From assembly GCA_903927965.1 (NCBI GenBank), contig CAIYPA010000308.1, forward strand, positions 1-36,377: 36,377 nucleotides of DNA, read 5' to 3'. Position 1 is the first letter of the stretch. Each line of letters opens with the position of its first letter. The DNA comes from an uncultured Bacteroidia bacterium (GTDB lineage Bacteria > Bacteroidota > Bacteroidia > Bacteroidales > Prolixibacteraceae). This document shows positions 3,507 through 36,377 of the stretch, piece by piece. The notes beneath the pieces were generated by a model. The model saw only the letters and a program-made list of their open reading frames with translations, was not told where the DNA came from and did not search any database. A program made the position numbers and the translations under genes.

Positions 3507-3527
3507 TTCATACAAATTAATGATCAT

Positions 3528-6500
3528 ATGAAACTAAATAAAGAAATATACATAAAGTACGGACTCCTCCTGTTTGCATTTCTGTTGTTATTGTCAGTTG
3601 TAAACCTGAAAGCCCAGAACAAACCGGATGCCAAAAAGCAAAAGTCGGTTGTGCTAACGATTAAAGTGACCGATGAACAAAGCACTTCTATCACTGGTGC
3701 TGAAATAATCCTCGGTGAAGGCCTTGTCCACACAGAGACAGATAAAAACGGTACAGTAAAATTGACCGTGAAGAACGATCAGGAGTTTGTGACCATATCC
3801 TCGCCAGGGTACGAACCAAAGGTTTTACTTGTGAACGACCTTATGACCAATCCCAATGTTCAGTTGGTTAAATCGCTGATGTTTATGACAACTGCCGATG
3901 ATGTCCCACTCCCATATATGACTATCAAGAAAAGGCTATTGACCGGAAGTACAAGTGTACTTGATGCCATTGTCCTTGACAAATACCCTTCGACAGATAT
4001 CCGAAATGCACTGACCGGACTTGTAACGGGGATGGAAGTTTACGAAAGGGACGGTTCTCCTGGAATGTCGGCTGAGGAAAAGCTTGGCTCATATGGTGCT
4101 GCTGAAAAGGTGGGACTTTATTCGCGCGGAAGTAGTTTGATGTACATTATCGACGATGTCCGCATGGATATTACCGAAATGCCATTGGATCCAAATGAAA
4201 TCGAATCTGTGTCTTTGGTCCGCGATATTGTCACAAAAACAATGTATGGGCCTGCTGCTGCCAATGGGATCGTGTTTATCAAAACCAAGCGTGGCAAAAA
4301 GAACGAGCGCGTGTTAAATGTCAATTTTGAGCAAGGCGTCAGTATCATTGACAAAATGCCGCAATGGGTAAATGGCGCCGATTATGCACGTTTGAACAAC
4401 CTTGCAAAAAAGAACAGTGGGATCACAACCGGTTTGTACAGTGATGCAGATATAGCTGCATATGAAAACAACGATCCTTATGATATGAACCACCCAAGTG
4501 TCGATTATTTCGGACTTTTGATCAAAAATACGAGAAGCTTTACGAGGGCAAGTGTGTCAACCAGCGGAGGGACAGAAGCGATGCAGTACAGTGCCTATAT
4601 TGGGTACAATGGCGAGGGTGACAATTTCAATATGGGACCAAAAGCTGGTTATCAGAGGATCAACGCACGGTCAAATCTGGACATCCGGATCAATGAGTTT
4701 TTGAAGGTTCAGTTGAATTTTGCAGCCGGACTATCACTGCGCGATTCGCCAAACTATGGATATACAAGTACAATTACTGAGGGTGGATCTCAGACAGGTA
4801 TTACCGAGATGCCAAATTTACTGAATGATATCACGAATACACCACCAATAGCTTTTCCTGTTTATGTAAACAACGATCCAACTTTAAAATCCCCTTGGTT
4901 TGGTATTTCTTCTGCCTATGGGACTAACCCGGTTGGAAACCTTGTAAAGAACGGATATTACAATGAATCGGGGCGGAATGGTGCAATCAGTTCCTTATTT
5001 GAGTGGGATATGGGAAATATAATCCCGGGATTAAAATCCCACACTTTTGTGGATTTCAATACTTTTTACCTGTTGCGCATCGGAAAGGCTGAAAACTATA
5101 CTGCTTACCGTATCGATCCAAGAACGTACAACCCAACTTTAGGGATCGCTTCTTTGACAAAGGCATGGGATGGTGTTGATGCAACTTCGCGTGCCAATTT
5201 GCACGACTTCTATTTTCAGAATTATGCTGCTTACGAGAATTTAAGCTACGATAAAAAATTCGGGGACCACTATGTCCAGGGATCCATGACCTATCGGATG
5301 TCTTCGATTAAGCGAAACGGATTTGAAGAGCCGCAACGTGAACAGGCAGGTATTTTTACAGGAATTTATTCCTATAAGGACAAGATTACGGTTCAGGGAG
5401 TTGTAAATTATGGTGGAACCAGTGGTCTGGCACCTGGATATGTGTATTCTACTTCCCCATCAATAGGTGCAAGTTATGTAATTTCGGAGGAGAAATTTAT
5501 GAAAAAACTCCATTTTATTGATTATCTGAAGCTTCGTGGTGAATATGGGGTAACATCTTACGATGCCTTCAGGGGGCCATTCTCCTATAGGGACCGTTGG
5601 AACCTCGATACCAATACAGGGAATACCGATAAATTCGGAACTTATTACAGCAATACCGGAACATGGATAGGGACTTACAAACAATCTTCCCAAAACTACA
5701 GGGCATATCCAAATCGTATCGGCAATCCTACAATTGGATTGGAACGCAGAAGGGAAGTAAGCCTTGGATTGGATGCTGAAATGCTGAAGAACAAACTATC
5801 GGTTGAGTTCAATTATTACAATATCCTCAGGTATGATGTGATTACAACAAGGACGAATACAACACCGATATTGTCGGGTACAACCGCAACCCTTCCTGCT
5901 GTGAATTACAATTCCTATTCGTATGAAGGTTTTGAACTGGGCTTGAAATTCAGGGACAAAATAGGGGACCTTCATTACATGATCGGCGGAAACGCATTCA
6001 CCCAAAAGCCAGTCATCGAACAGGTTGACGAACCAAATTACCGGAATGCGTACCAATTGACGGTAGGTGGTCCTTCGGATGCGATCCGTGGATTAAAATA
6101 CCTTGGACGTTTTACCACCGATGCTGAAGCAAATCAGGTTTCACAGTTTGGCGAGACCCTTCATGCCGGTGACTTAAAATACGAAGATGTAAATAAGGAT
6201 GGTGTAGTTGACGATAACGATGCCCAATACATCGGACATTCAACACCAAAATTGTATTATGCTATTAATCTTAGTGTTACATACAAAGATTTTGACCTGA
6301 CCTTAACAGGTGTTGGCCGGGCTTTTTACGACCAGATGTTGAACAGCAAATATTACACCAACGGTTCGGGCGATAACATTTATTCCAAATTTGTCCTGGA
6401 CAACATCGACGCAAATGGTTTGGGCGGCGCTTATCCTAAGTTGACTTACTACCAGATTTCAAATAATTTTAAGACTTCCAGTTTCAGGTTGGTTGACAAC

Positions 6501-6725
6501 AGCTTCTTTAAGATCCAGAATGTCGAGATAGCCTATAACCTTCCTGTCCATAAATTTGATTGGATGAAAGGGGTTAGGGGATTCAGGATCTTTGCGCGCG
6601 GTGCAAATGTTTACACCATCAGCAAGCTGAACGAAAGTGATGTCGAACCCGAAAACATCAATGCTGGGATTACCAACTATCCACTGAATATCACACTTAC
6701 CGGTGGAGTTAAATTAACCTTTTAA
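3528..6725 (+). CDS. SusC/RagA-family TonB-dependent receptor (complete)
   Basis: A 1065-residue outer-membrane receptor. It has a signal peptide (residues 1-30, ending L-K-A-Q), a carboxypeptidase-regulatory-like beta domain at about 42-115 (VTDEQSTSITGAEIILGEG), a plug domain at about 150-255 (NALTGLVTGMEV; YIIDDVRMDI; IESVSLVRD; GPAAANGIVFIKTKRG), and then the beta-barrel ending in K-L-T-F. This plan is that of SusC/RagA transporters, which carry SusD-bound glycans across the outer membrane using TonB/ExbBD. The sequence is clearly of a different subfamily from the interrupted SusC at the window start, so this is not a recent tandem duplicate. It is followed 11 bases later by its presumed SusD and then by a DUF1735-type lipoprotein, giving a complete SusC-SusD-surface-lipoprotein unit. 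No glycoside hydrolase or regulator is visible next to it, so the substrate is unknown. Confidence 0.95.
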   Translation: MKLNKEIYIKYGLLLFAFLLLLSVVNLKAQNKPDAKKQKSVVLTIKVTDEQSTSITGAEIILGEGLVHTETDKNGTVKLTVKNDQEFVTISSPGYEPKVLLVNDLMTNPNVQLVKSLMFMTTADDVPLPYMTIKKRLLTGSTSVLDAIVLDKYPSTDIRNALTGLVTGMEVYERDGSPGMSAEEKLGSYGAAEKVGLYSRGSSLMYIIDDVRMDITEMPLDPNEIESVSLVRDIVTKTMYGPAAANGIVFIKTKRGKKNERVLNVNFEQGVSIIDKMPQWVNGADYARLNNLAKKNSGITTGLYSDADIAAYENNDPYDMNHPSVDYFGLLIKNTRSFTRASVSTSGGTEAMQYSAYIGYNGEGDNFNMGPKAGYQRINARSNLDIRINEFLKVQLNFAAGLSLRDSPNYGYTSTITEGGSQTGITEMPNLLNDITNTPPIAFPVYVNNDPTLKSPWFGISSAYGTNPVGNLVKNGYYNESGRNGAISSLFEWDMGNIIPGLKSHTFVDFNTFYLLRIGKAENYTAYRIDPRTYNPTLGIASLTKAWDGVDATSRANLHDFYFQNYAAYENLSYDKKFGDHYVQGSMTYRMSSIKRNGFEEPQREQAGIFTGIYSYKDKITVQGVVNYGGTSGLAPGYVYSTSPSIGASYVISEEKFMKKLHFIDYLKLRGEYGVTSYDAFRGPFSYRDRWNLDTNTGNTDKFGTYYSNTGTWIGTYKQSSQNYRAYPNRIGNPTIGLERRREVSLGLDAEMLKNKLSVEFNYYNILRYDVITTRTNTTPILSGTTATLPAVNYNSYSYEGFELGLKFRDKIGDLHYMIGGNAFTQKPVIEQVDEPNYRNAYQLTVGGPSDAIRGLKYLGRFTTDAEANQVSQFGETLHAGDLKYEDVNKDGVVDDNDAQYIGHSTPKLYYAINLSVTYKDFDLTLTGVGRAFYDQMLNSKYYTNGSGDNIYSKFVLDNIDANGLGGAYPKLTYYQISNNFKTSSFRLVDNSFFKIQNVEIAYNLPVHKFDWMKGVRGFRIFARGANVYTISKLNESDVEPENINAGITNYPLNITLTGGVKLTF

Positions 6726-6736
6726 ACTTAGGGAAT

Positions 6737-8590
6737 ATGAAAACTAAATATCTGTTAATCATTTTGACCGCATTGCTTTCAGAGTCATGCAGCAAATTTC
6801 TGGATGCCTATCCAAACGGGGACAAAACTAGGGATGATGTATTTGCTTTCCAGGAAAGTGTGCAGGGTTTAATTGGCCGGAGCTACGACTATCTGGGAAG
6901 TGACTATTCATCGAAAAACTACAACAGCAACGAAACGGCTTACCTTGAGTGCGCAACCGACAACGCTGTGAGGCGTTCAACAACCGATATCGTGGTACAG
7001 TTTGCCAAAGGCGAGCTTACGACCGGAGGGCAGGCTTTTACAAGGGATTATTGGACAAGGGATTACAATGCAATCTTCTTGTTGAACCTCTTTCTTAAGG
7101 ACAATAGGGGTATTAATTCGACAGTGTTGATCGTTCCTGAATTAAATAAGCTGGTTACCAGGAGATTACAAGGTGAAGCTTTTGGTTTGCGTGCCTGGGC
7201 AGAACGCGATTTGTTGAAAAAATTTGGTGGCAAAGAACTGGGGGGAACCAGGATCCTGGGTTTCCCGATTGTTAAAGAGGTACTCGATGCGTCCCAGGAC
7301 ATTAATCTTGAGCGGAACACTTATGACGAATGTGTCAAACAGATCATCGCTGATTGCGATTCCGCAATCAAATACCTCCCGATCGCTCACCGCGACTATC
7401 TCTATTCCGCAGCATACCTGAGCGACAAGAAAGAATTTTTGGGAGCAGTAAACTGGAACAGGGTGGATGGGGTCACAATGTATGCCATCAAAGCCATGAC
7501 TTACCTGACATGGGCCAGCAAGCGGTTTAACCCTGCAAATGAACCTGCCAGATGGGATTCAGCCGCAAAATATGCCGCCAAGGTGATGGATTTCAAAGTC
7601 GCCGCTTCACCACTCGGTGATGGTTACGATCCAACAAAACGCGTGGACTTTACCGATGTTTACGACAAAAGTATTGTCTGGTCATCAAGGCTTATCGAAA
7701 ATGACATTACCATGGAACAGGTATTCTTTCCTGCCGCCGCAAACGGTAACGGTTTTGCACCATTTGGCGATATCGGGGCAACAACTGAATTCCTTAACGC
7801 ATTTGGCGACAAAAACGGTTATCCGATCAGTAGCAGTACAGTTTATGATGTCACCAAACCGTTTGATAACAGGGACCCACGTTTTTATGCCCAGATCAAT
7901 TACAACGGAGTTGGTTATATCCCTGCATATAGTTCCACAACACCTATTTACACTTTTGAGACATGGGAACCCGATGCACAAGGGTTAAATGGTGGAAAAG
8001 ATAGGGCAGGCAACGGAAACAATGTGAGGACGAATATTTATGTAAAGAAGTTCCTCTATGGGATCAACTGGAAGGTTTCCAGTTTCCAGAGAAGGCCACG
8101 GTGCAGGTTCAATATCCGGTACGCTCACATGGCATTGGCTTTTGCTGAAGCTGCAAACCAGGTTGTTGGGCCAAATGGGACACTTTATGGCTACTCACCA
8201 AAGACAATAATAGGTACGCTTCGTTCAATGAAGACCTATGATGACAAGACAGGGATACCTTCCCCTGATCCTTATCTGGCAAGTGTTGCAACTGCAGGAA
8301 AGGATGCTTTCTATGATCTGATCAAAAACGAACGGCGTATTGAACTCAGTTTTGAGGGTGAACGTTTCCACGACATGTCCAGATGGACCGATGATACCCA
8401 GTTTAAGGCATTGTATAACAAACCTGTGCATGGAATCAAAACCATCAAGAACGGTACAGCTTTTACATACGATCTTACATGGGAAGTGGAGAACCGCGCT
8501 TACAATTCGGCTTATATGCCGTTGCCGTATGACGAAATCCTTCGTATGAGCAAATTGGTCCAAAACGACGGCTGGGATAAATGGAAATAA
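6737..8590 (+). CDS. SusD/RagB-family outer-membrane glycan-binding lipoprotein
   Basis: A 617-residue SusD homologue and the partner of the complete SusC just upstream (11-base gap). The N-terminus MKTKYLLIILTALLSESC is a lipoprotein signal with Cys18. The residue at the -3 position is Ser rather than Leu, a slightly unusual lipobox but acceptable in Bacteroidota. The SusD C-terminal signature appears at about residues 531-551 (IKNERRIELSFEGERFHDMSRW region). The middle contains the helical repeat scaffold (LQGEAFGLRAWAERDLLKKFGG). It is expected to cap the SusC barrel at the cell surface and bind an oligosaccharide. The low similarity to the SusD at 1605-3506 indicates that the two SusC/D pairs probably serve different or differently decorated glycans. 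Confidence 0.94.
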   Translation: MKTKYLLIILTALLSESCSKFLDAYPNGDKTRDDVFAFQESVQGLIGRSYDYLGSDYSSKNYNSNETAYLECATDNAVRRSTTDIVVQFAKGELTTGGQAFTRDYWTRDYNAIFLLNLFLKDNRGINSTVLIVPELNKLVTRRLQGEAFGLRAWAERDLLKKFGGKELGGTRILGFPIVKEVLDASQDINLERNTYDECVKQIIADCDSAIKYLPIAHRDYLYSAAYLSDKKEFLGAVNWNRVDGVTMYAIKAMTYLTWASKRFNPANEPARWDSAAKYAAKVMDFKVAASPLGDGYDPTKRVDFTDVYDKSIVWSSRLIENDITMEQVFFPAAANGNGFAPFGDIGATTEFLNAFGDKNGYPISSSTVYDVTKPFDNRDPRFYAQINYNGVGYIPAYSSTTPIYTFETWEPDAQGLNGGKDRAGNGNNVRTNIYVKKFLYGINWKVSSFQRRPRCRFNIRYAHMALAFAEAANQVVGPNGTLYGYSPKTIIGTLRSMKTYDDKTGIPSPDPYLASVATAGKDAFYDLIKNERRIELSFEGERFHDMSRWTDDTQFKALYNKPVHGIKTIKNGTAFTYDLTWEVENRAYNSAYMPLPYDEILRMSKLVQNDGWDKWK

Positions 8591-10128: not shown

Positions 10129-11796
10129 TCAATAATCAAAACTGCTGCCACCCAGAAACTCCCTTAGTACAGATGTTGGTGGGATCTCATCTTCTGGTAT
10201 CGATTCAAAATAGGAGATAAAGATCAACAGGCGAACAGCTTCCGAATATTCGCGAACGTTCTCCTTGACTTGCTTGAGCAAAGGGCTTGCATGTTTCTTG
10301 ATCACTGCCAACTCGTAAATCAGTGCCGAGTTGAACATGATATCGGCATTTTCCTGATAAGGGAAGATGTGCTTCTCTTCGCCCCGACGTACACTTGGCC
10401 ACCTTTGAATCGTGGTGAGCGCATCGTATCCCCTGTATTTGCTGTCACGTATAATTCTGCGCAAAAGCCGATTATCGGTTGTGGGAACATAAGTGTGTTC
10501 ATCGATCGAAATTTGGGTCAAAGCCGATACAAAGATACGGAAGGTATTTTCTGGGTTTATCCTAGGTGTCAATTCGGGGTTTAACCCATGTATCCCTTCG
10601 ATGATCAGGATGTTGTCCTTGGCCATTTTTATTTTCTTTCCGTTGAAAGTCCGTTGTCCCAGGTGAAAATCAAACTTTGGGACTGCAACCTCCTCGCCGG
10701 CCATCAATTTAAGCAGGAATTCATTAAAAAAAGGAATGTCTATTGCTTCCAACGCTTCAAAATCGTAAAAGCCCAAATCATCGACCGGAGTAAACTCCCG
10801 GTTGACGAAAAAATCGTCAACAGAAACTTCGATTGTGTGTAAGCCATTAACAGCCAATTGAATGCCCAATCTTCGGCTAAAAGTTGTTTTTCCCGAACTC
10901 GATGGGCCGGCTACCAGAACGATATTCACCTTGTCATGTTTTTGCGTGATTAGGGTGGCAATTTCTGCGATTTTTTTCTCATGCAATGCTTCCGAAATCT
11001 TGATCAGGTCACTGTGTTTTCCGGCACGGGTAAATGAATTCAACCTCGGAATATCCTCCACGCCAAGGATTTCAGCCCATTTCTTGTGTTCCCTGAAAAT
11101 ATTGAAATGTTTTTGCTGTTTTATTGCTGGTTCAAGTTTTTCCGGGTCTGAAAGGATTGGGAAGCGGAGCAGGAATCCATCATAATATTTTTCCACACCA
11201 TAATTCTTAACCAATCCGGTTGTGTTGAGCATGTGCCCGTAGAAAAAATTGACATGCTGTCCCAAAGTAAATATTGGGGCGTAAAGCCGACCATAATGAC
11301 GGAAGAGTTCTGCTTTGCGCGACAGTCCGCTGTTTTCAAGCATTTCAATGGCATGTTCAGCAAGTATCATTTTACGCTCTATTTGGATATCCTGAAGAAT
11401 GATCGACTTCATTTCATCATTGACCAACCACGCATCTTCTTCCGTAAAAGCCCTGTCAAGTCCTTCTATTTCACAATAATACCCTTTCGAAATGGCATGG
11501 TCGATCTTAAGTTGGGCTTCAGGCCACAGGTTTTTGACCGCGGCATAGAGTATAAAAGATAAGGTGCGAAGGTACATCCTTTGCCCATCCCGGCAAGTAT
11601 AATCAAAAAACTCGACCATTCGCGGTTTTACCATCTCATAATCAAGTGGTTTTGGCCGGTTGTTCACATAAGCTCCAAGTATAGGATGCTTTAATCCGAT
11701 TCCAAATTGAGTGGCATATTCACCCAATGTTGTCCCAAGAGGTGAGTTGCAGCTTGCATTTGAATTGACACATTTAATTTCGATGTTCTTTGCCAT
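10129..11796 (-). CDS. TGS-like domain plus uridine-kinase/phosphoribulokinase-family nucleoside kinase
   Basis: A 555-residue protein using the ATG at 11794-11796 (a GTG lies one codon upstream). The first part resembles the TGS and second additional domain region of threonyl-tRNA synthetases (TLGEYATQFGIG…; DHAISKGYYCEIEG… with FTEEDAWLVNDEM). The second part is a P-loop kinase with Walker A GPSSSGKTT at about 297-305, a following SVDDFF segment, and late family motifs (IIEGIHGLNPEL; RLLRRIIRDSKYRG). Enzymes of this family phosphorylate uridine or related nucleosides. This two-part form is common in Bacteroidota and is annotated as nucleoside kinase, but its true substrate is poorly established. 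It lies 54 bases downstream of the phytoene-synthase-type gene on the same strand and may be co-transcribed. There is no sign of truncation. Confidence 0.8.
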   Translation of the reverse strand: MAKNIEIKCVNSNASCNSPLGTTLGEYATQFGIGLKHPILGAYVNNRPKPLDYEMVKPRMVEFFDYTCRDGQRMYLRTLSFILYAAVKNLWPEAQLKIDHAISKGYYCEIEGLDRAFTEEDAWLVNDEMKSIILQDIQIERKMILAEHAIEMLENSGLSRKAELFRHYGRLYAPIFTLGQHVNFFYGHMLNTTGLVKNYGVEKYYDGFLLRFPILSDPEKLEPAIKQQKHFNIFREHKKWAEILGVEDIPRLNSFTRAGKHSDLIKISEALHEKKIAEIATLITQKHDKVNIVLVAGPSSSGKTTFSRRLGIQLAVNGLHTIEVSVDDFFVNREFTPVDDLGFYDFEALEAIDIPFFNEFLLKLMAGEEVAVPKFDFHLGQRTFNGKKIKMAKDNILIIEGIHGLNPELTPRINPENTFRIFVSALTQISIDEHTYVPTTDNRLLRRIIRDSKYRGYDALTTIQRWPSVRRGEEKHIFPYQENADIMFNSALIYELAVIKKHASPLLKQVKENVREYSEAVRLLIFISYFESIPEDEIPPTSVLREFLGGSSFDY

Positions 11797-11850
11797 CACT
11801 TTTAATCGTTAACAAAATAAAGCCACAAGATAGCTTTTTTGTCCGATTTT

Positions 11851-16326: not shown

Positions 16327-16369
16327 GAATAGGGGAAATAAATAGAAATAACAGAAATAAAGTAGAAAT
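16315..16369. repeat. About 10-bp-period GAAAT repeat between rdgB and porZ
   Basis: Five GAAAT cores and one variant GGAAT recur every 9-11 bases: agaaat at 16315, ggaat at 16325, gaaat at 16335, and agaaat at 16344, 16353 and 16364. The array spans the end of rdgB, the whole intergenic gap, and the last unit overlaps the porZ ATG. It is short and imperfect. An array with the same core, inverted, lies downstream of guaA. Confidence 0.6.
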
Positions 16370-18677
16370 GGGTCTGAAGATTCAATATTTGCTCATTGTA
16401 TTGTTCTCCTGTTTTATTTCAGGTACGGCACCTGCAAGTAATTGGAGGTCGCATCTATCATATTATCAGGTCATTGCTGTCGTACAGGGTAACCAGAAAA
16501 TATTTGCCGCCAATCGAAATGGCCTGTTTTCCTATGACCTCGCAACCAAGGGTTTTGACACAAAAACTACTGTTGAGGGGCTTTCAGACTCCGGGATCTC
16601 GGTAATTCAATGGACGGATTCACGGGGCGGTTTACTTGTCGGATATTCCAACGGGAATCTGGACCTAATCATAGACAATAAGATACTTAATCTCCCGTTT
16701 ATTAAAGACAAAGCCTCAATTCCCAAAAAAGCGATCAACCATATCTATTGTGAAGGTGATTTTGCATGGCTGGCTTGTGATTTCGGGATTGTGAAGGTTA
16801 ACCTTAAAAAATGGGAAGTGGCAGAAACATGGATGATCGGCCCGCTAGCCACTTCAATTTCAGTGCTGGATTTTACTTCCGACGACCATTATTTCTGGGC
16901 CGCTACCGATTCAGGGATATTCAGGGCTGAAAAGTCGAACATCAATCTTCAGGATTACCGGAACTGGGTATTGCAGGAACAGTTGCCCATACCTCGGGAA
17001 CAATACAATTCGGTCGTTGTTTTCAATCAGAAGGTGATTGTTTGCGATTTGGCTGGCCGTATTTATTCATATGACGGAACATCCTGGCAAACGGCCTATC
17101 CGACAGTCACGAATGTCGTTAAGATCCGTGCTTTCCCAGCTGCCTTGGTTTTTATATGTAAGGAAAGTGTTAAGATGACAGGAACGAATGGAGTTGTTAC
17201 AATCTCTGCTTATGATGCCCTTTTACCTGCAAATACAATTATTTCACCAGCCGACGTGCTGATCTCGGGTACCGGTGAACTTTGGGTCGGCGATCAAACA
17301 TTTGGACTTTATCAGAAATCTGGCAATCAGGGTTTTATCTTGCATGTACCTTCCAGTCCGGCAAACAATAACGTTCAGGCCCTGACATCGAATGGTTCAA
17401 ATCTTTATGTAGCTACGGGCGTTGAAGGTTCAGTTTCACAGGCAACTCCAGCCGAATTGCATCGATTTACCGGTAATCAATGGGTATCCATTAATCAATA
17501 CACTGACAATAAGTTAGCTGGATTGAAAAATATACTGGAAATTGTTCCATCACCAATTGATCCCGAACATTACTGGGCTTCAACATCGGGAAGTGGACTA
17601 CTCGAATTTCAGGGTACCAAATTATTAAAGCAGTACAATTCGACCAACTCGACCCTTGAAACCTTCAACGGACTTTGCCAGACCGGTGGGTTGGCTTTTG
17701 ATGCAATGGGTTATTTGTGGGTTACCAACCCAAAGGCAAGCAATCAATTGCATGTGATTAAACCTGACGGGACATGGAAAGCCTTAAATTACCAAGGCAT
17801 TAACAATCAGTTTGTTTCAGCTGGGAACCTGATCATCACAAAATCGGATACCAAATGGATCATTGTGGACAACGCAGATCTTTTTGCAGTTAAGACACGG
17901 AGCACACCGGATATTACCACGGATGATGTGTTTAAAAAGAGTTCTGTGTTCAGCCGGTTTACAAACAATGAATCGACCCTGATCAAAGGGTTTAGTGTTG
18001 TCAATTGCATAGCGGAAGACCATGATGGGTACCTCTGGGTTGGGACAGAAAATGGGGTTGTCGTTTACAACAATCCTGACGCCATATTTGGGACCAATGG
18101 CTTTTATGGTATCCAACCCTCTGTCGATCTTGGGGATGGTATTTTTCATCCGGCACTTGAAAATGAAACAGTCACTGCAATGGCGGTTGACGGTGGTAAC
18201 CGGAAATGGTTTGGCACCACAAATTCGGGTGTTTTTCTATTTTCAAAAGATTGTTCAACACTGATCAGCCATTTCAATACCGATAATTCGCCTCTCTTTT
18301 CAAACAAGATCAATGCTATTGCGATAAATGGCGATAATGGGGAGGTCTTCTTTTCAACTGCGAATGGGTTGATTTCCTTAATGGGAAATGCGACAGAAGG
18401 GGAGGGGGCATTCCATAATCTGTATGTTTGGCCCAATCCCGTCAGGGAAACCTATCAGGGAGATATAACAATTGATGGGCTAGCGGAAGAATCGACTGTC
18501 AGAATAACAGATGTTGCCGGTAACCTTGTTTATAAGACCACCTCGATTGGTGGGCGTGCCATTTGGAATGGTAAAAATGGGAAGGGACAGCGATCCAGTA
18601 CCGGCGTTTACCTTATATTTTGTGCCAATCGCGATGGCAGTCAATCGAAAGTGATCAAGCTTTTATTTATTCATTAA
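16368..18677 (+). CDS. porZ: Type IX secretion system protein PorZ (two-propeller protein with sorting domain)
   Basis: A 769-residue exported protein. It has a signal peptide (to about residue 23, SGTAPAS), then SNWRSHLSYYQ typical of PorZ. Two beta-propeller regions follow, with repeated blades such as WAATDSGIFRAEK, LWVGDQTFGLYQK, LWVGTENGVVVYN and KWFGTTNSGVFLF. The C-terminal sorting-type domain (WPNPVRETYQGDITIDGL…STGVYLIFC) is about 85 residues long. PorZ sits at the cell surface in the type IX attachment complex with the sortase PorU and helps deliver the anionic lipopolysaccharide that is attached to cargo. Length and domain order match the Porphyromonas protein. The recO gene starts immediately at the stop codon, a linkage also seen in other Bacteroidota. 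A generic two-component-regulator propeller protein is the less likely alternative. Confidence 0.82.
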   Translation: MGLKIQYLLIVLFSCFISGTAPASNWRSHLSYYQVIAVVQGNQKIFAANRNGLFSYDLATKGFDTKTTVEGLSDSGISVIQWTDSRGGLLVGYSNGNLDLIIDNKILNLPFIKDKASIPKKAINHIYCEGDFAWLACDFGIVKVNLKKWEVAETWMIGPLATSISVLDFTSDDHYFWAATDSGIFRAEKSNINLQDYRNWVLQEQLPIPREQYNSVVVFNQKVIVCDLAGRIYSYDGTSWQTAYPTVTNVVKIRAFPAALVFICKESVKMTGTNGVVTISAYDALLPANTIISPADVLISGTGELWVGDQTFGLYQKSGNQGFILHVPSSPANNNVQALTSNGSNLYVATGVEGSVSQATPAELHRFTGNQWVSINQYTDNKLAGLKNILEIVPSPIDPEHYWASTSGSGLLEFQGTKLLKQYNSTNSTLETFNGLCQTGGLAFDAMGYLWVTNPKASNQLHVIKPDGTWKALNYQGINNQFVSAGNLIITKSDTKWIIVDNADLFAVKTRSTPDITTDDVFKKSSVFSRFTNNESTLIKGFSVVNCIAEDHDGYLWVGTENGVVVYNNPDAIFGTNGFYGIQPSVDLGDGIFHPALENETVTAMAVDGGNRKWFGTTNSGVFLFSKDCSTLISHFNTDNSPLFSNKINAIAINGDNGEVFFSTANGLISLMGNATEGEGAFHNLYVWPNPVRETYQGDITIDGLAEESTVRITDVAGNLVYKTTSIGGRAIWNGKNGKGQRSSTGVYLIFCANRDGSQSKVIKLLFIH

Positions 18678-31156: not shown

Positions 31157-31801
31157 ATGGCTGAAGAAAAAGAGACTTCAAGGGTTGAGGCATTTAGCGA
31201 TGGAGTTTTTGCAATTGCAATTACCCTTTTGATATTGGAGATCAAAGTACCGGAGGTGCCCGAACATTCTACGAATAATCAATTATTTGCGTCACTTTTA
31301 AGTTTGTGGCCTTCCTACTTTGCATTCCTGCTTAGTTTTACGGCTGTCTTAATCATGTGGATCAATCACCATGGGTTTTTTAAATACCTAAAGAAAATAA
31401 ACACACCTTTTCTTTATGCAAATGGGTTTTTACTATTAGTGGTAACATTCATCCCTTTTCCAACAGCCGTACTGGCCAAATACATCAATTCTCCGGCGGC
31501 CAATATGTCGGCGGCTTTTTATACCGGATCAATGGTTTTGTTAAGTATAGCTTATAACCTGCTCTGGTTCACCACAGCTTACAAAAGGGTTCTTGTAAGG
31601 GATGAAATTTCAGATGCCTTGATCAACAAAATCAGGAATGCCTACTGGCTTGGTTTTTTTGTTTATCTGGCAGCTTTTGCCCTTTCATTTTTTAATGCGA
31701 TTGCAGGCCTTCTTCTGTGCATCTCTTTCTGGACATTTTGGGTCGTGCTCGATTACAGCAAAACAACGAAAAAAACAAAACCCAGACGAATATTACGTTG
31801 A
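31157..31801 (+). CDS. TMEM175-family (DUF1211) integral membrane potassium channel
   Basis: A 214-residue membrane protein with six hydrophobic segments. The first carries the family signature R-V-E-A-F-S-D-G-V-F-A-I-A-I-T, which lines the pore in bacterial TMEM175 potassium channels. Bacterial members have one six-helix unit per chain and form tetramers. They conduct potassium with low selectivity; their physiological role is unclear. The C-terminal tail is strongly basic (KTTKKTKPRR). The gene follows the acyl-CoA synthetase by 12 bases and is convergent with the nitroreductase. Confidence 0.88.
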   Translation: MAEEKETSRVEAFSDGVFAIAITLLILEIKVPEVPEHSTNNQLFASLLSLWPSYFAFLLSFTAVLIMWINHHGFFKYLKKINTPFLYANGFLLLVVTFIPFPTAVLAKYINSPAANMSAAFYTGSMVLLSIAYNLLWFTTAYKRVLVRDEISDALINKIRNAYWLGFFVYLAAFALSFFNAIAGLLLCISFWTFWVVLDYSKTTKKTKPRRILR

Positions 31802-31823: not shown

Positions 31824-32378
31824 TTACAGTTTTTTCTCCTGATACCCATTGTAGGTAACAATCTCATCAATCGGTTTGCGGATTTTTGTGCGTATTTCTT
31901 TTCCAGGATGGCCCAATGTAATGATCAACTGGACCCGTTTTGATTTGGGAATATCCAGCAGTTTTTTCACTTTGTTTTCATCAAACCAACCAATCATACA
32001 ACTGCCGATACCTTCCGAGGCAGCCGCAAGACAAATGTAACTGGCAATAATCCCAATATCGATCAGTGGGAAATGCTTGCGTTTAACCAGGCTACCGAAA
32101 TTGGAGGTGAAGTTGGCAGCCTCTTCAATAAGGACAAGGTGAACAGGTGCCTGTTTTGTAAAGTGGTTCATCCCCAATATCTTTTCGGAAGTTGCATCTG
32201 CAATCTGGTTTTTTAGTTCAATTTCATTTACAACTATGATATGCCATGGTTGGGCATTGCAAGCCGATGGGGCCAATCTTGCAGATTCAAGGATCCGGTC
32301 GAGGATGTCGGTGGCAATAGGTGTATCGAGATAACTCCTGTCGCTTTGCCGTGACAATGCCAATGATTTAAAGTCCAT
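31824..32378 (-). CDS. Nitroreductase-family FMN oxidoreductase
   Basis: A 184-residue nitroreductase-fold protein. The start at 32378 (MDFKSLALSRQSDRSYLD) is preferred because the S-R-Q-S-D-R-S phosphate-binding segment then lies at the usual N-terminal position; an 18-residue extension exists but includes a direct repeat and looks non-coding. Other family features are the SACNAQPWHIIVV FMN segment and the EGIGSCMIGWF segment before the C-terminal strand (IITLGHPGKEIRTKIRK). These enzymes form dimers and use NAD(P)H to reduce nitro compounds, quinones or similar substrates; the natural substrate is unknown. It is separated from the operon behind it by a strong terminator. Confidence 0.85.
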   Translation of the reverse strand: MDFKSLALSRQSDRSYLDTPIATDILDRILESARLAPSACNAQPWHIIVVNEIELKNQIADATSEKILGMNHFTKQAPVHLVLIEEAANFTSNFGSLVKRKHFPLIDIGIIASYICLAAASEGIGSCMIGWFDENKVKKLLDIPKSKRVQLIITLGHPGKEIRTKIRKPIDEIVTYNGYQEKKL

Positions 32379-32380
32379 AT

Positions 32381-32408
32381 GATTTCTAAAACCTCCGATT
32401 TCTAAAAC
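32381..32408. repeat. Two 12-base direct repeats GATTTCTAAAAC before the nitroreductase
   Basis: GATTTCTAAAAC occurs at 32381-32392 and 32397-32408, with a 16-base period, immediately upstream of the nitroreductase start codon. It may be a regulator site or a small duplication. Confidence 0.45.
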
Positions 32409-32443
32409 TTCAAGCGGTCTTGAGACCCTCAAAGTGTTGGATT

Positions 32444-32509: not shown

Positions 32510-33535
32510 TTAATTCATTAAATCAAGTTTGACCATGTCCTGGATGTCAAGCATCCCGATAGGTACACCATTTTCGGTGACAATGATATTGTCAACCTGA
32601 TTGGCATTGAAAATATCTGCTGCCTTCTGGAGCATCGAATCCCCTTCGATTGAAATTGGATTGGCTGTCATACATTCGCCAACGGTGGCAGTTAGGATAT
32701 GGTCACCAAGCTGGCGCATTTGACGGCGCAAATCCCCATCTGTGAATATACCTGCAAGCTTGCCCTCTTTTGTAACCACTGAAACTGCGCCCATGCCGGA
32801 GTCGGTCATCTTTAATAGGGCATCCAAAATTCTGCACCCAGTGTCAACAACAGGATTGGAGTCAGATATCACACTCTTTACCTGAATGGTCATCAACCGT
32901 GTATGTTGAAAGAACTGGTCCGTACCAAGCTTTGTAAGATGGTTATCAGCCAGTTTTTTCATAATGCTCCAGGGAAGTGTAATATTATGGGCGCCAAGTG
33001 TCAGGGCATCTTTCACATGTTCAGGATACCTTACGGAGGAGAACATTACTTTGCAATCATATTTGTACTCCTTAATGACATCGACAATTTGTTTGACCAG
33101 ACTGAGTGCGTCGTGACCCTGGTCCTGCATGCGGCCAACCAGGACACAAACATAGTTTGCCCCTGCGGTCAAGGCCATAAAGGCTTGCTGAATGTTGTAA
33201 ACAAGGTGAACGTTGATCAGGAACCCTTCATCATGAAGCTTCTTGCAAGCTTTTACCCCTTCAAGATTGACCGGAATTTTAAACACTGTTTTTTTCTTGT
33301 CGAGACCCAGGCCCAATAACCGGTGTGCTTCAGCAATGATTTGATCAGATGTTTCGCCCAACGCCTCAATCATAAGTACTGGGACCATTTTTGACAATTT
33401 GATGATTGCACCATCGATATCGGTAATCCCGTTTTTGTGCATAAATGTTGGCGTGGTCGTCACACCATCAATGATCCCTAATTTCAGGGCTTCTTCAATT
33501 TCAGCCAGATTAGCCGAGTCAAGAAAAAATTCCAT
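32510..33535 (-). CDS. Transaldolase/fructose-6-phosphate-aldolase-like domain fused to a KdsD-like CBS pair
   Basis: A 341-residue fusion. Residues 1-215 align with the small transaldolase/FSA (TalC) family: Asp6 in MEFFLD, the Schiff-base Lys86 in FKIPVN, Arg135 in VGRM, Ser167, and the GAHNITLP turn. Two active-site positions differ: Thr28 where TTNP Asn is conserved, and His110 where Thr is usual. Residues 218-341 are two CBS domains with GKLAGIFTDGDLRR and VGECMTANP, which closely resemble the CBS pair of the arabinose-5-phosphate isomerase KdsD. The SIS isomerase domain is absent. It is the last gene of kdnA-kdnB-kdsA, 20 bases after kdsA, so a role in supplying or sensing the sugar phosphate used by KdsA is a reasonable inference. 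The domain assignment is firm; the reaction is unknown. Confidence 0.88.
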   Translation of the reverse strand: MEFFLDSANLAEIEEALKLGIIDGVTTTPTFMHKNGITDIDGAIIKLSKMVPVLMIEALGETSDQIIAEAHRLLGLGLDKKKTVFKIPVNLEGVKACKKLHDEGFLINVHLVYNIQQAFMALTAGANYVCVLVGRMQDQGHDALSLVKQIVDVIKEYKYDCKVMFSSVRYPEHVKDALTLGAHNITLPWSIMKKLADNHLTKLGTDQFFQHTRLMTIQVKSVISDSNPVVDTGCRILDALLKMTDSGMGAVSVVTKEGKLAGIFTDGDLRRQMRQLGDHILTATVGECMTANPISIEGDSMLQKAADIFNANQVDNIIVTENGVPIGMLDIQDMVKLDLMN

Positions 33536-33555: not shown

Positions 33556-34386
33556 TTACAATCTGTATTTGACTTCAATGTTATGGATGTCGATAAGCGG
33601 TTTAAGGAACTCTGTGACATCAGCTATACACATTTGACTGGCAGCATCGCACAATGCCCTTGTTGGATCAGGGTGTACTTCGATAAAAAGGCCGTCAATA
33701 CCTGCAGCAACCCCGGCACGTGCCAAAGTCGGAATAAATTCGCGGGAACCACCTGCTGGGTCTGAACTTGGAATACCATATTTGCGGATGGAATGGGTCA
33801 CGTCAAATACTACTGGGTATCCTGTAGTCCTCAAATGGTAGAAACTTCTGGGATCAACGATCAGGTCGTTGTAACCAAAAGCATAACCTCTTTCAGTTAC
33901 CAGAATATTCGTATTTCCGGCTTGTTCAACTTTTTTAACCGGCTTGATCATGTTCTCTGGCGCCAGGAACTGGGCATGTTTCAGGTTGATCACTTTCCCT
34001 GTTTTTGCAGCTTCGACAACCAATGTCGTTTGCATTACCAGGTATGCCGGGATCTGAATTACGTCAACAACCTCAGCAGTGGCTAAAATCTGTTCGGGAT
34101 AATGGATATCGGTGAGTAATGGAACTCCAAATTGCTCTTTTATTTTCTGAAGGATTGCCAATCCCTTATCGATTCCGGGTCCCGAATAAAAATCCGAAGA
34201 ACTCCGGTTGTCCTTCTGAAAGGATGATTTGAAGATAAGTGGCAAATCCAATTTTTGAGATAAACCGACAAGAAATTCAGCGGTATCCATCATCGTTTTC
34301 TCATCCTCGACCACACATGGGCCTGCAATCAGAAAAAGTTGATCTGCTCCGCAACGGACATTCCCAACATTAACTATTTTCTTCAT
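33556..34386 (-). CDS. kdsA: 3-deoxy-8-phosphooctulonate (Kdo-8-phosphate) synthase
   Basis: A 276-residue synthase that condenses phosphoenolpyruvate with arabinose-5-phosphate to Kdo-8-phosphate for lipopolysaccharide. The ATG at 34384-34386 gives a normal start. Motifs are AGPCVVED, FKSSFQKDNRSS (substrate loop, Arg61), NLKHAQF, TERGYAFGYNDL and FDVTHS. Cys24, His198, Glu236 and Asp247 match the metal ligands of the metal-dependent class. One oddity is that the usual (C/A)RQTD segment reads V-M118-Q-T-T, losing an arginine and an aspartate conserved in characterised enzymes. It is 10 bases after kdnB and 20 before the transaldolase-CBS gene, so all are one operon. Confidence 0.92.
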   Translation of the reverse strand: MKKIVNVGNVRCGADQLFLIAGPCVVEDEKTMMDTAEFLVGLSQKLDLPLIFKSSFQKDNRSSSDFYSGPGIDKGLAILQKIKEQFGVPLLTDIHYPEQILATAEVVDVIQIPAYLVMQTTLVVEAAKTGKVINLKHAQFLAPENMIKPVKKVEQAGNTNILVTERGYAFGYNDLIVDPRSFYHLRTTGYPVVFDVTHSIRKYGIPSSDPAGGSREFIPTLARAGVAAGIDGLFIEVHPDPTRALCDAASQMCIADVTEFLKPLIDIHNIEVKYRL

Positions 34387-34396
34387 TATTAATGAT

Positions 34397-35473
34397 TTAC
34401 ATTTTTTGTAGCAGACCACGAAGTTTTTCACGTGTAATGATTGTCTCCCAATCCGGTCCGCAAACATGTGCCCACATAAAAACCAGGGTCAAGGTTACAT
34501 CGATCATTTTCTCGATCTCCTCTTGAGTACAATTTGCTGTGACCCCCGTAGGAATCACAATATTGTTGTTCTTCATCATCTCCCTGAATTCTTTCACCCC
34601 TTCCGGGTAGAATTCTTCCAACTGATTAAAGACCACACAATTTCCTATTCCGTGGTGGATCCCTAAAACTGTAGCAAGACCATATGAAATGGCGTGACAG
34701 GCACCAACTTCCGAATAAGTCAAAGAAAGTCCACCCAAAAAGGAGGCAACCATCAGTTTTTCATCGTTTTCGGGAGTATGGCTATCCGTTGAAAGAAAGA
34801 TTTCCCGGCAAAGGCGTAAGGACTCAGTTCCCAATGAATCGCCCATAATCGTTTTGCGATGGCCGTTTGCCGCTTCGATATTGTGGATATAGCAGTCCAT
34901 TGCAGTATAGAACCGATGCGGCTCTGGAACTGAAGCGATCAGGTCGGGATCCATCACCAACTGATCTGCGGGTGTAAAATTGCCTTTGATCCCAAGTTTT
35001 TTCTCAGGCCCGCTTAAAACCGTAGTCATCGAGACTTCTGCACCTGTTCCCGATATTGTTGGGATCACAGTGCAATGCACTCCTTTATTTTTGATAAAGT
35101 CAAGTCCCTGGTAAAGAGCAGATGAGCCATCGTTTGTAAACATTAACCGGATGGCTTTTGCATAATCCATAATGCTTCCCCCACCGATCCCAACCACCGA
35201 TACAGGCAAACCATTACGAAGGCTTTTGACTTCGGCAACGATGGCATCCACAGTTTTCGTTTTAGGTTCATCGGTTATGTCAATAATCTTAAGGATGTCC
35301 TGAGTATGAAGGGGTATTCTTTTCATTAAATCTTTGCCCTCAAAATAAGGGTCGAGCAGAAAAAGAACATAGGAGTCCTTTTCAATCCTGAGTTCTGCGA
35401 GTACATCTTCCAATTGGTCAAAACTGTTCCGACCATAAAGTATCCGTCCTACTGCTTTTAAATTTCTAAACAT
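34397..35473 (-). CDS. kdnB: Iron-containing alcohol dehydrogenase, probable 3-deoxy-octulosonate 8-oxidase KdnB
   Basis: A 358-residue group III (iron-type) alcohol dehydrogenase. The dinucleotide motif GIGGGSIMDYAKA is at 96-108, PTISGTGAEVS at 138-148, and the metal ligands are Asp193, His197, His260 and His274. The start at 35473 avoids overlap with kdnA, seven bases upstream; a start seven codons earlier would overlap it. Placement between a DegT-type transaminase and kdsA matches the KdnA/KdnB pair known from Shewanella, in which KdnB oxidises C8 of Kdo to the 8-oxo form before KdnA adds the amino group. The function therefore rests on family plus operon context; a different sugar-alcohol oxidase is the alternative. 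Confidence 0.82.
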   Translation of the reverse strand: MFRNLKAVGRILYGRNSFDQLEDVLAELRIEKDSYVLFLLDPYFEGKDLMKRIPLHTQDILKIIDITDEPKTKTVDAIVAEVKSLRNGLPVSVVGIGGGSIMDYAKAIRLMFTNDGSSALYQGLDFIKNKGVHCTVIPTISGTGAEVSMTTVLSGPEKKLGIKGNFTPADQLVMDPDLIASVPEPHRFYTAMDCYIHNIEAANGHRKTIMGDSLGTESLRLCREIFLSTDSHTPENDEKLMVASFLGGLSLTYSEVGACHAISYGLATVLGIHHGIGNCVVFNQLEEFYPEGVKEFREMMKNNNIVIPTGVTANCTQEEIEKMIDVTLTLVFMWAHVCGPDWETIITREKLRGLLQKM

Positions 35474-35480
35474 ATTCTTT

Positions 35481-36377
35481 TTATTTAAGTGCAATTTTAA
35501 GTGCCGACCTCATTTTTGTAGTCAGCGTGTTCAACTCTTCTTCACTCCAGTTCACCATAATCTGGGTCATCATCAATTTTTGCATAATAGCATCTGATTG
35601 AGGTACTTCCATATTCCGATAATCGGGAGCATCTTTCATTTTCATCACCGGTAAGTTGTAAATAGACGACATCTCCTTTAAATGTCCCCATTGGCGATGG
35701 TAATGAAAATTGTTCCTGTACCAGTAAGATGCACTTAGCCCCACTTTCTGGAACTCATCAAAAGTTTTTGAAGCTTTGTCAGCATCTGGCAGAAAAAAAG
35801 ATAGGAAGGTAGCAGAATCGCCATCTTCGTCCGGAACATCCCTGAGCTTGATTTCAGGAAATTCCAGTACCACCTGTTTCAATATCTTTTGGTGTTCTTT
35901 TTGTTTTTCGATCATATAGGGCAACTTGCGTAGTTGAGCCAGAACCACTGCTGCCCCAAGTTCCGATCCCCGGAAATTGTACCCAAGAATTGGGTGTTGC
36001 TCTGCACCACGGGCATTCCCGATGTGATCGTGCCCATGATCGGAGTATTTATGGGCTTTTTCGTATAACTCATCATCATTTGTTGCAACTGCACCACCTT
36101 CCCCGGCTGTAATGATCTTGTAGAAATCGAAAGAAAAGGCCGACATTTTCCCAAAATTTCCAAGCATTTTGCCTTTGTAACTGCCCCCAAGGGCAGGTGC
36201 AGCATCTTCAATCAATATAAGATTGTGTTTTTCACAAACTGCAAGTATTTCATCCATTTTTCCCATTGACCCGAACACCTGGATCAGTAAAACCGCCTTT
36301 GTTCTTGGAGTAATGGCTTTTTCAATCCCTTCAGGACTAAGGCAAAGGGTTTCGTCCAATTCTGCAAATACGGGAAC
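35481..36377 (-). CDS. kdnA: DegT/DnrJ/EryC1 aminotransferase, probable Kdo8N transaminase KdnA (5' end outside window)
   Basis: About 298 residues of a sugar aminotransferase; the frame stays open to the window edge (…VPVFAELDETL), so the N-terminus is cut off. Fold-type I PLP features are complete in what is seen: the EDAAPALGGSYKGK segment with the pyridine-binding Asp, and the Schiff-base lysine (codon 36117-36119) in FYKIITAGEGG. In the Kdo8N pathway KdnA uses glutamate to convert 8-oxo-Kdo to 8-amino-3,8-dideoxy-octulosonate, which makes lipopolysaccharide cores carrying an amino sugar in place of Kdo. The direct neighbours kdnB and kdsA support this assignment over other DegT sugar aminotransferases. 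Confidence 0.82.
   Translation of the reverse strand, partial: VPVFAELDETLCLSPEGIEKAITPRTKAVLLIQVFGSMGKMDEILAVCEKHNLILIEDAAPALGGSYKGKMLGNFGKMSAFSFDFYKIITAGEGGAVATNDDELYEKAHKYSDHGHDHIGNARGAEQHPILGYNFRGSELGAAVVLAQLRKLPYMIEKQKEHQKILKQVVLEFPEIKLRDVPDEDGDSATFLSFFLPDADKASKTFDEFQKVGLSASYWYRNNFHYHRQWGHLKEMSSIYNLPVMKMKDAPDYRNMEVPQSDAIMQKLMMTQIMVNWSEEELNTLTTKMRSALKIALK

Follow-up and report, generated by a model that had tools for sequence, protein, structure and literature searches.

Most Gram-negative bacteria require 3-deoxy-D-manno-octulosonate (Kdo), and to our knowledge the only sources of arabinose-5-phosphate (A5P) in these organisms are SIS-domain isomerases, namely KdsD, GutQ and SIS-only forms. 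KdsD, KpsF and GutQ join the SIS domain to a CBS pair, and kdsD can lie near kdsA, as it does in one locus of our survey (L170). Transaldolases and fructose-6-phosphate aldolases (FSA) of the TalC/MipB type form a separate family, with solved members from T. maritima (1vpx), B. subtilis (3r8r), T. acidophilum (3s0c) and E. coli (FsaA, 1l6w). A third described system is the Shewanella pathway to 8-amino-3,8-dideoxy-D-manno-octulosonate (Kdo8N), with the enzymes KdnB (5k8c) and KdnA (5k8b); the role of KdnB is listed in PMC5125639. Here we describe a gene with likenesses to each of these systems. It occupies positions 32510..33535, on the reverse strand, of a 36,377-nucleotide stretch of DNA from an uncultured Prolixibacteraceae bacterium (the window), and encodes a 341-residue transaldolase-CBS fusion in a cluster with kdsA, kdnB and kdnA. 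An earlier reading of this DNA, the original prediction, had proposed either a CBS-regulated alternative source of A5P or a sensor of sugar-phosphate supply. From the comparisons presented below we consider it probable that the fusion is a non-homologous replacement for KdsD, making A5P for the neighbouring KdsA.

The extent of the fusion was set by its open reading frame and ATG start, by Pfam and NCBIfam matches, and by an AlphaFold model (mean pLDDT 90.5, pTM 0.64). Residues 3–203 (32927..33529, reverse strand), placed by Pfam and by an active-site alignment, match TAL_FSA (PF00923) with E 6.4e-38 and 131.2 bits against a gathering score of 27, and in the predicted structure this barrel resembles the microbial transaldolases 1vpx, 1wx0 and 3s0c. 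It is 31–35% identical to the solved transaldolases 1vpx, 1wx0, 3s0c and 3r8r and 34–38% identical to ordinary TAL_FSA members from the window's order. TIGR00875, the fructose-6-phosphate aldolase equivalog model, scores the fusion at 168.5 bits, under its curated cut-off of 245.95. Behind the barrel, Pfam CBS matches two stretches (E 6.6e-17). The resulting pair, at residues 216–337 (32525..32890, reverse strand), is assigned to the KdsD kind by profile and fold matches to the CBS pairs of A5P isomerases: its top sequence-profile match is one such pair, 4o9k (94.8 bits), and when it was modelled alone (pLDDT 90.3) the five best fold matches were CBS-pair chains of putative A5P isomerases (4o9k, 3k2v, 3fna). 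The ligand of 4o9k is, we assume, CMP-Kdo.

The NCBIfam models for KpsF, KdsD and GutQ align to the CBS part of the fusion alone, residues 216–336, through their own C-terminal parts. TIGR00393 (KdsD/KpsF) is matched over model positions 154–259 of 268 with 64 bits against a cut-off of 203.7, leaving its SIS part unmatched. The original prediction had described an aldolase-like barrel joined to a KdsD-like CBS pair, with the SIS catalytic domain of KdsD missing, and each of these elements is borne out. Because the SIS domain is absent, the fusion is not a KdsD. It shares with KdsD, KpsF and GutQ a CBS pair of the same type, a place near kdsA and, by our reading, the product A5P; it differs from them in that its catalytic barrel has another fold. 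As classified by its profile matches, the fusion is a member of the TAL_FSA superfamily that is KdsD-like by context.

Loci for comparison were taken from a scan of named genomes as the best 80 of 539 confirmed relatives, 80 being no count of the family. Among these 80, 79 align over at least 324 of the 341 fusion residues and one (L074) ends at residue 231. Those 86–94% identical to the fusion of the window come from metagenome-assembled genomes (MAGs) labelled Bacteroidia, Prolixibacteraceae, Mariniphaga or Tangfeifania, and 79 of the 80 loci carry labels of Bacteroidota groups. An assembly accident as the origin of the fusion is ruled out by these relatives elsewhere, one of which lies on a 3.15-Mb contig (genome G350). 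In plasmid sequences 94 records matched, none over 80% of the fusion query, and the 20 rows inspected matched the barrel only; among viral contigs there were five pattern matches, none of them a relative. No paper describing the transaldolase-CBS architecture, or connecting it with kdsA or kdsD, came up in literature searches confined to open-licence PMC papers.

KdsA lies beside the fusion in 64 of the 80 loci, each time upstream and on the same strand, so that the linkage seen in the window extends to other genomes (by open reading frames the count is 62; of the two missed, the KdsA of L064 had been masked by a longer opposite frame). The other Kdo genes beside the fusion are a KdsC-like HAD protein (46/80), KdnB (45/80), KdnA (43/80) and KdsB (11/80). 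Among the 62 loci flanked on both sides by 2 kb or more, KdsA is present in 51 and any of the five Kdo genes in 54. Two clusters are especially full, kdnA-kdnB-(two small genes)-kdsA-fusion-kdsC-kdsB in L031 and kdsA-fusion-kdnA-kdnB-kdsB-kdsC in L079; in both, the remaining steps of CMP-Kdo8N synthesis are all present and an A5P isomerase is not. The KdsC role of the HAD protein is putative, because its best curated match, KdsC, scores 54 bits, under the cut-off of 208. A comparable grouping of kdsA and kdsD with a KdsC-like gene is seen in L170, which comes from a genome with KdsD. A role of the fusion in Kdo8N synthesis only was rejected, since KdnB and KdnA accompany it in 45 and 43 of the 80 loci and not in all.

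Two further observations concern the distribution of the gene. The one locus without a Bacteroidota label, L120, is a kdsB-kdsA-fusion-kdsC cluster on a contig labelled as a Deltaproteobacteria MAG, which may reflect horizontal transfer or misbinning. Labilibacter marinus carries a second copy of the fusion (L100, 8001–9020; the same strain as L082) that, by reading, lies beside transaldolase-like and transketolase-like genes instead of Kdo genes and retains the T28/H110 signature described below.

The window is the entire contig C308 of a genome of 7.57 Mb in 584 contigs (G000; completeness 98.0, contamination 4.4). We found no SIS-CBS KdsD in this 98.0% complete genome: at E 1e-3, TIGR00393 matched just three frames, the fusion through its CBS part, one resembling IMP dehydrogenase and one, with two SIS domains, resembling GlmS. 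The SIS domain model matched at four places: twice in the GlmS-like frame, once in a GmhA-like protein (by NCBIfam) and once in a MurQ-like one (by sequence motif). A normal KdsD elsewhere in the genome, which would have weighed against the original prediction, was rejected on these results, although at 98.0% completeness a gap may still hide one. The kdsB gene sits on another contig. The fusion is also the sole TAL_FSA match, with no ordinary transaldolase found in the genome; the seven other fusion genomes examined carry one or two ordinary ones.

The relationship between the fusion and KdsD was then followed across the phylum in an evenly drawn sample of 392 Bacteroidota genomes, each at least 90% complete, with lists compared by eye and thresholds of E <=1e-45 for the fusion, E <=1e-20 for KdsD (loose enough to admit forms below the cut-off) and E <=1e-50 for KdsA. 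The fusion occurs in 7 genomes, KdsD in 275 and KdsA in 283. In all seven fusion genomes KdsA is present and KdsD was not detected, and among the remaining KdsA genomes KdsD was found in 272 of 276; three genomes (G173, G406, G412) have KdsD without KdsA. If genomes were independent, which they are not, the chance of all seven fusions falling among the 11 KdsD-less of 283 KdsA genomes would be 1.2e-11. The seven span five families (f1, f63, f69, f71, f76), all of which, except f1, also hold KdsD genomes in the sample. G033, from the order to which the window belongs, is an eighth genome with the fusion; by reading, its SIS proteins are GlmS-, GmhA- and MurQ-like alone. A second set consisted of 50 of the 80 genomes in which the fusion had been found (KdsD model at E <=1e-10), with most of the window's closest relatives left out and with L081 and L111, the same assemblies as G033 and G205, included. 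No KdsD-type SIS domain was detected in 48 of these 50, where matches begin only from model position 139 on and are therefore of the CBS type.

The KdsA proteins linked to the fusion form a clade of their own (support 100/100, stem length 1.21) in a tree built from 62 linked sequences, 8 from fusion genomes G000–G446, of which at least one is represented twice, and a further 21 sequences. An alignment of 30 hand-picked loci, chosen partly for low scores and with G066 left out, shows five positions at which linked KdsA differs from 20 other Bacteroidota KdsA (G307 aside): KANRS becomes KDNRS, RQT becomes MQT, KKGQF becomes KHGQF (with R in G033), SVQ becomes IRK and SDG becomes CDA. One linked KdsA in this comparison is a fragment with gaps. 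KdsA of the fusion clade thus lacks the usual KANRS and RQT motifs, the residues of which we take to bind A5P.

At E 1e-95 the fusion type of KdsA was found in exactly 8 of the 392 genomes: all seven that hold the fusion, and G307. The KdsA of G249, a fusion genome of the same family, shares 88% identity with that of G307 and is its sister in the tree (100/98). G307 has no fusion, as judged from both the 392-genome fusion search and a TAL_FSA search. Its operon (L164, C1:3616000-3634000) reads kdnA-kdnB-kdsA-kdsC-kdsB, without the fusion; a full-length KdsD (3.0e-95) is encoded elsewhere in the genome, and its KdsA is single. In G249 the fusion and kdsA are on different contigs. Across the 181 genomes of this family, KdsD scores over the cut-off in 159, but in none of the 12 genomes that share a genus with G249 (itself counted) and in none of the 6 from genus g261; of those 18 KdsD-less genomes G249 alone is known to have the fusion, the fusion search there covering the phylum sample only. 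Within one family, then, nearly the same KdsA pairs with the fusion in one species and with KdsD in another, which amounts to a natural swap. No other observation argues as strongly for a product, A5P, common to the fusion and KdsD.

The G307 case also bears on the possibility that linked KdsA takes another acceptor, supplied by the fusion, and that the operon product is a Kdo isomer or analogue. The clade stem of 1.21 and the fixed KDNRS, MQT and KH changes, unseen in the 20 other KdsA compared, would suit such a reading. G307, however, has that KdsA with all of its changes and yet has a full KdsD and no fusion, and at roughly half of the loci KdnB and KdnA of the Kdo type lie beside the fusion. 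We regard a different acceptor as improbable.

The active site was compared in an alignment of 37 fusions (that of the window and 36 of the 80 loci) with 14 ordinary TAL_FSA members of the window's order, for which 16 loci had been picked and L007 and L011 left out. Asp6, Glu57, Lys86, Arg135, Ser167 and Arg169 are invariant in all 37 fusions, and Lys86 aligns onto the Schiff-base lysine of solved transaldolases, equivalent to Lys86 of the T. acidophilum enzyme (title of 3s1w). Five substitutions are equally fixed (37/37 each): Thr28 for Asn, His110 for Thr, Leu132 for Phe, Phe165 for Ala and Ser166 for Ala, the ordinary residues being present in 13 or 14 of the 14 ordinary members. Glu-Thr-Phe together with Asn28 occurs in 14/14 ordinary members, whereas Glu57-His110-Leu132 together with Thr28 occurs in 37/37 fusions. 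For FsaA, PMC13259622 describes Asn28 as a donor contact and Gln59-Thr109-Tyr131 as a water network, the counterpart of which in the fusion is Glu-His-Leu. As the alignment reads, the residues that set aldolase versus transaldolase behaviour are rebuilt round a kept Schiff-base lysine. With N28T and the change of the catalytic-water Thr/Phe to His/Leu in 37/37, the fusion is therefore not taken to be a plain aldolase. Like the TalC/MipB-type enzymes it has the barrel fold with Lys86, Asp6, Arg135 and Ser167; unlike them it has Thr28, His110, Leu132, Ser166, an added CBS pair and a sub-cut-off TIGR00875 score. Identity as an ordinary FSA or transaldolase was rejected on the fixed active-site changes, with which aldol chemistry is still compatible.

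On account of the near-exclusion of KdsD, the linkage to kdsA, the separate KdsA clade and the KdsD of G307, the fusion most likely makes A5P. Both this product and the route to it are inferred, the product from genomic evidence, and the most likely explanation appears to be that a non-homologous protein has taken over a known step of the pathway while the regulatory module was kept. Several observations weigh on the other side. At eight of the 62 loci flanked on both sides by 2 kb or more, the neighbours of the fusion include no member of the five Kdo genes; six of those eight genomes were searched, and a KdsD-type SIS domain was found in 0/6. Four KdsA genomes of the 392-genome sample (G082, G259, G326, G342) have neither the fusion nor KdsD, and the near-exclusion figure ignores shared ancestry. 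Absences in the 50-genome set are weaker evidence, because most of these assemblies are drafts or derive from metagenomes and the set comes without completeness figures, and 2 of the 50 also carry a KdsD-type SIS protein. One (G454) has a full KdsD alongside the fusion. The other, Prolixibacter denitrificans (G450), has in addition to the fusion a KdsD-type protein of 210 residues with a SIS domain and no CBS pair (L168, 7477–8109); this protein also departs from the two-part KdsD in Bacteroidota, being SIS without CBS where the fusion is the reverse. Linked KdsA has fixed changes of its own, so its acceptor might differ from A5P, and G307 speaks against that in one lineage only. N28T, T110H and F132L speak against unaltered aldolase or transaldolase chemistry. 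Finally, a GmhA-type SIS isomerase may moonlight as the A5P source.

This last point leads to a reading that makes the fusion a sensor or regulator of KdsA without catalytic activity and assigns A5P formation to a source so far overlooked, for instance a GmhA-like SIS isomerase. The rebuilt water site of the barrel, the GmhA-like proteins of fusion genomes and the KdsD-type SIS protein in 2/50 fusion genomes are all in keeping with it. Because the catalytic lysine is invariant in 37/37 and a KdsD-type enzyme was not found in 48/50 fusion genomes, an absence that a mere regulator would leave unexplained, we consider it the least probable of the explanations weighed here, and the sensor-only alternative of the original prediction loses ground accordingly.

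If the fusion makes A5P as a replacement for KdsD, three routes can be drawn, which in our judgement rank epimerisation first, aldol addition second and isomerisation third. Ribose-5-phosphate is the C2 epimer of A5P. A Schiff-base ribose-5-phosphate 2-epimerase would invert C2, either by retro-aldol/aldol steps or by deprotonation and reprotonation of an enamine, and release A5P. L-ribulose-5-phosphate 4-epimerase, of the class II aldolase family, offers a precedent; we know of no epimerase of the kind proposed here, which counts against it. Such a route would make free glycolaldehyde unnecessary, it would employ the invariant His110 at the site where Thr holds the catalytic water, and the second fusion copy of Labilibacter marinus (L100), beside transaldolase-like and transketolase-like genes, fits with it. 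According to PMC9947464, TalB F178Y yields A5P plus ribose-5-phosphate, both C2 epimers, from the same two fragments, glycolaldehyde and glyceraldehyde-3-phosphate, which suggests that one barrel of the TAL_FSA family can reach both epimers; FsaA itself is reported there to give A5P only and no ribose-5-phosphate, a point against epimerisation. We place this route first, tentatively. A fuller version would have a transaldolase-fold Schiff-base 2-epimerase arising through Asn28 to Thr and Thr/Phe to His/Leu, with the CBS pair of the displaced isomerase keeping end-product control by CMP-Kdo or CMP-Kdo8N; we hold it with a similar, slightly greater reserve.

The aldol route is that of the original prediction, in which an FSA-type barrel joins glycolaldehyde and glyceraldehyde-3-phosphate to A5P. 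FsaA does carry out this reaction and has been used for it in vitro and in E. coli cells, as PMC9947464 describes, and the product is the right one. Lys86, Asp6, Arg135 and Ser167 are retained, and loss of Asn28, given its role in FsaA (PMC13259622), suits a donor without a second hydroxymethyl group. The water network Gln59-Thr109-Tyr131 is replaced by Glu-His-Leu, however, and no glycolaldehyde-producing gene was noticed beside the fusion, where no systematic search for one was made. Of the original proposal, then, the alternative, CBS-regulated source of A5P is favoured as a replacement by the near-exclusion of KdsD and the G307 swap, whereas FSA chemistry becomes one of three routes, weakened by the changes at the catalytic water and the donor contact, and is somewhat doubtful.

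An aldose-ketose isomerase would convert ribulose-5-phosphate to A5P with Lys86, His110 and Glu57 as acid/base groups and no Schiff base. Its overall reaction would be identical to that of the KdsD replaced, which accords with the interchange of KdsD and the fusion in the G307/G249 lineage beside nearly the same KdsA, and the three residues lie at known active-site positions of the TAL_FSA family. The kept Schiff-base lysine and Asp6 suggest covalent chemistry instead, and we know of no isomerase in this family; isomerisation is on balance unlikely.

A scheme for the proposed replacement can be outlined as follows. A transaldolase-type barrel would have taken the place of the SIS catalytic domain ahead of a KdsD-type CBS pair. 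The likeliest partners of Lys86 in a Schiff base would be an aldose phosphate, namely ribose-5-phosphate, or glycolaldehyde that then adds to glyceraldehyde-3-phosphate, and His110 could assume the proton-shuttle role of the usual catalytic water. KdsA would condense the A5P so made with phosphoenolpyruvate, and its product would be carried on to CMP-Kdo or CMP-Kdo8N for lipopolysaccharide by the KdsC-like HAD phosphatase and KdsB, joined at roughly half of the loci by KdnB and KdnA. From its kinship with the CBS pair of KdsD, the CBS pair of the fusion probably senses the end product, whether a nucleotide or CMP-Kdo/CMP-Kdo8N.

Should this prove correct, a second, unrelated A5P-forming enzyme would close a pathway gap in Bacteroidota that have kdsA and kdsB but no kdsD, and the transaldolase family would gain a new activity. 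A regulatory CBS pair would have been retained while its catalytic partner was swapped for another fold, providing an independent enzyme with which to test CMP-Kdo sensing by KdsD-type CBS pairs. The altered motifs of the linked KdsA clade offer a further point that can be tested.

In the window itself the genes upstream of the fusion, in order and on the same strand, are kdsA, kdnB and kdnA, separated by gaps of 20, 10 and 7 bases. The single operon of the original prediction agrees with this arrangement, and gaps of this size make a single transcript likely. The kdsA gene (33556..34386, reverse strand) encodes the Kdo-8-phosphate synthase of the distinct clade, with the KDNRS, MQT, KH, IRK and CDA motifs, and scores 326.9 bits, above the curated TIGR01362 cut-off of 314; its start was placed by reading the junction at ATG 34386 instead of at the listed frame start, 34467. 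The kdnB gene (34397..35473, reverse strand; start likewise read from the junction) encodes a Kdo 8-oxidase of the iron-containing alcohol dehydrogenase family, matching 5k8c ('3-deoxy-alpha-D-manno-octulosonate 8-oxidase') with 388.5 bits. The kdnA gene (35481..36377, reverse strand), for a Kdo8N transaminase of the DegT family by Pfam, has lost its 5' part at the contig end, and its assignment comes through a complete relative in L054 that matches 5k8b ('8-amino-3,8-dideoxy-alpha-D-manno-octulosonate transaminase') with 451.5 bits. In L054 and L057 an unrelated, transporter-like gene precedes kdnA by reading. The presence of kdnA and kdnB is what the cluster has in common with the Shewanella Kdo8N pathway, considered here by its enzymes and not as a gene cluster; the window cluster also holds kdsA and a candidate for A5P formation.

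Directly downstream of the fusion is a nitroreductase-family gene (31824..32432, reverse strand; Pfam Nitroreductase). Its membership in the pathway was rejected as improbable, since it adjoins the fusion in only 9 of the 80 loci, namely eight close relatives of the window and Prolixibacter. Between this gene and one for an AMP-binding enzyme lies a 214-residue protein of the Pfam TMEM175 potassium channel family (31157–31801). Farther away, two SusD-family genes (1605–8590) flank a 1065-residue protein that drew no Pfam hit at E 1e-10 and may be a SusC-type transporter; a 556-residue protein (10129–11799) has a phosphoribulokinase/uridine kinase domain confined to its C-terminal part (residues 294–491); and positions 16368–18677 encode a PorZ-like type IX secretion protein with an N-terminal beta-propeller (E 1.4e-37).

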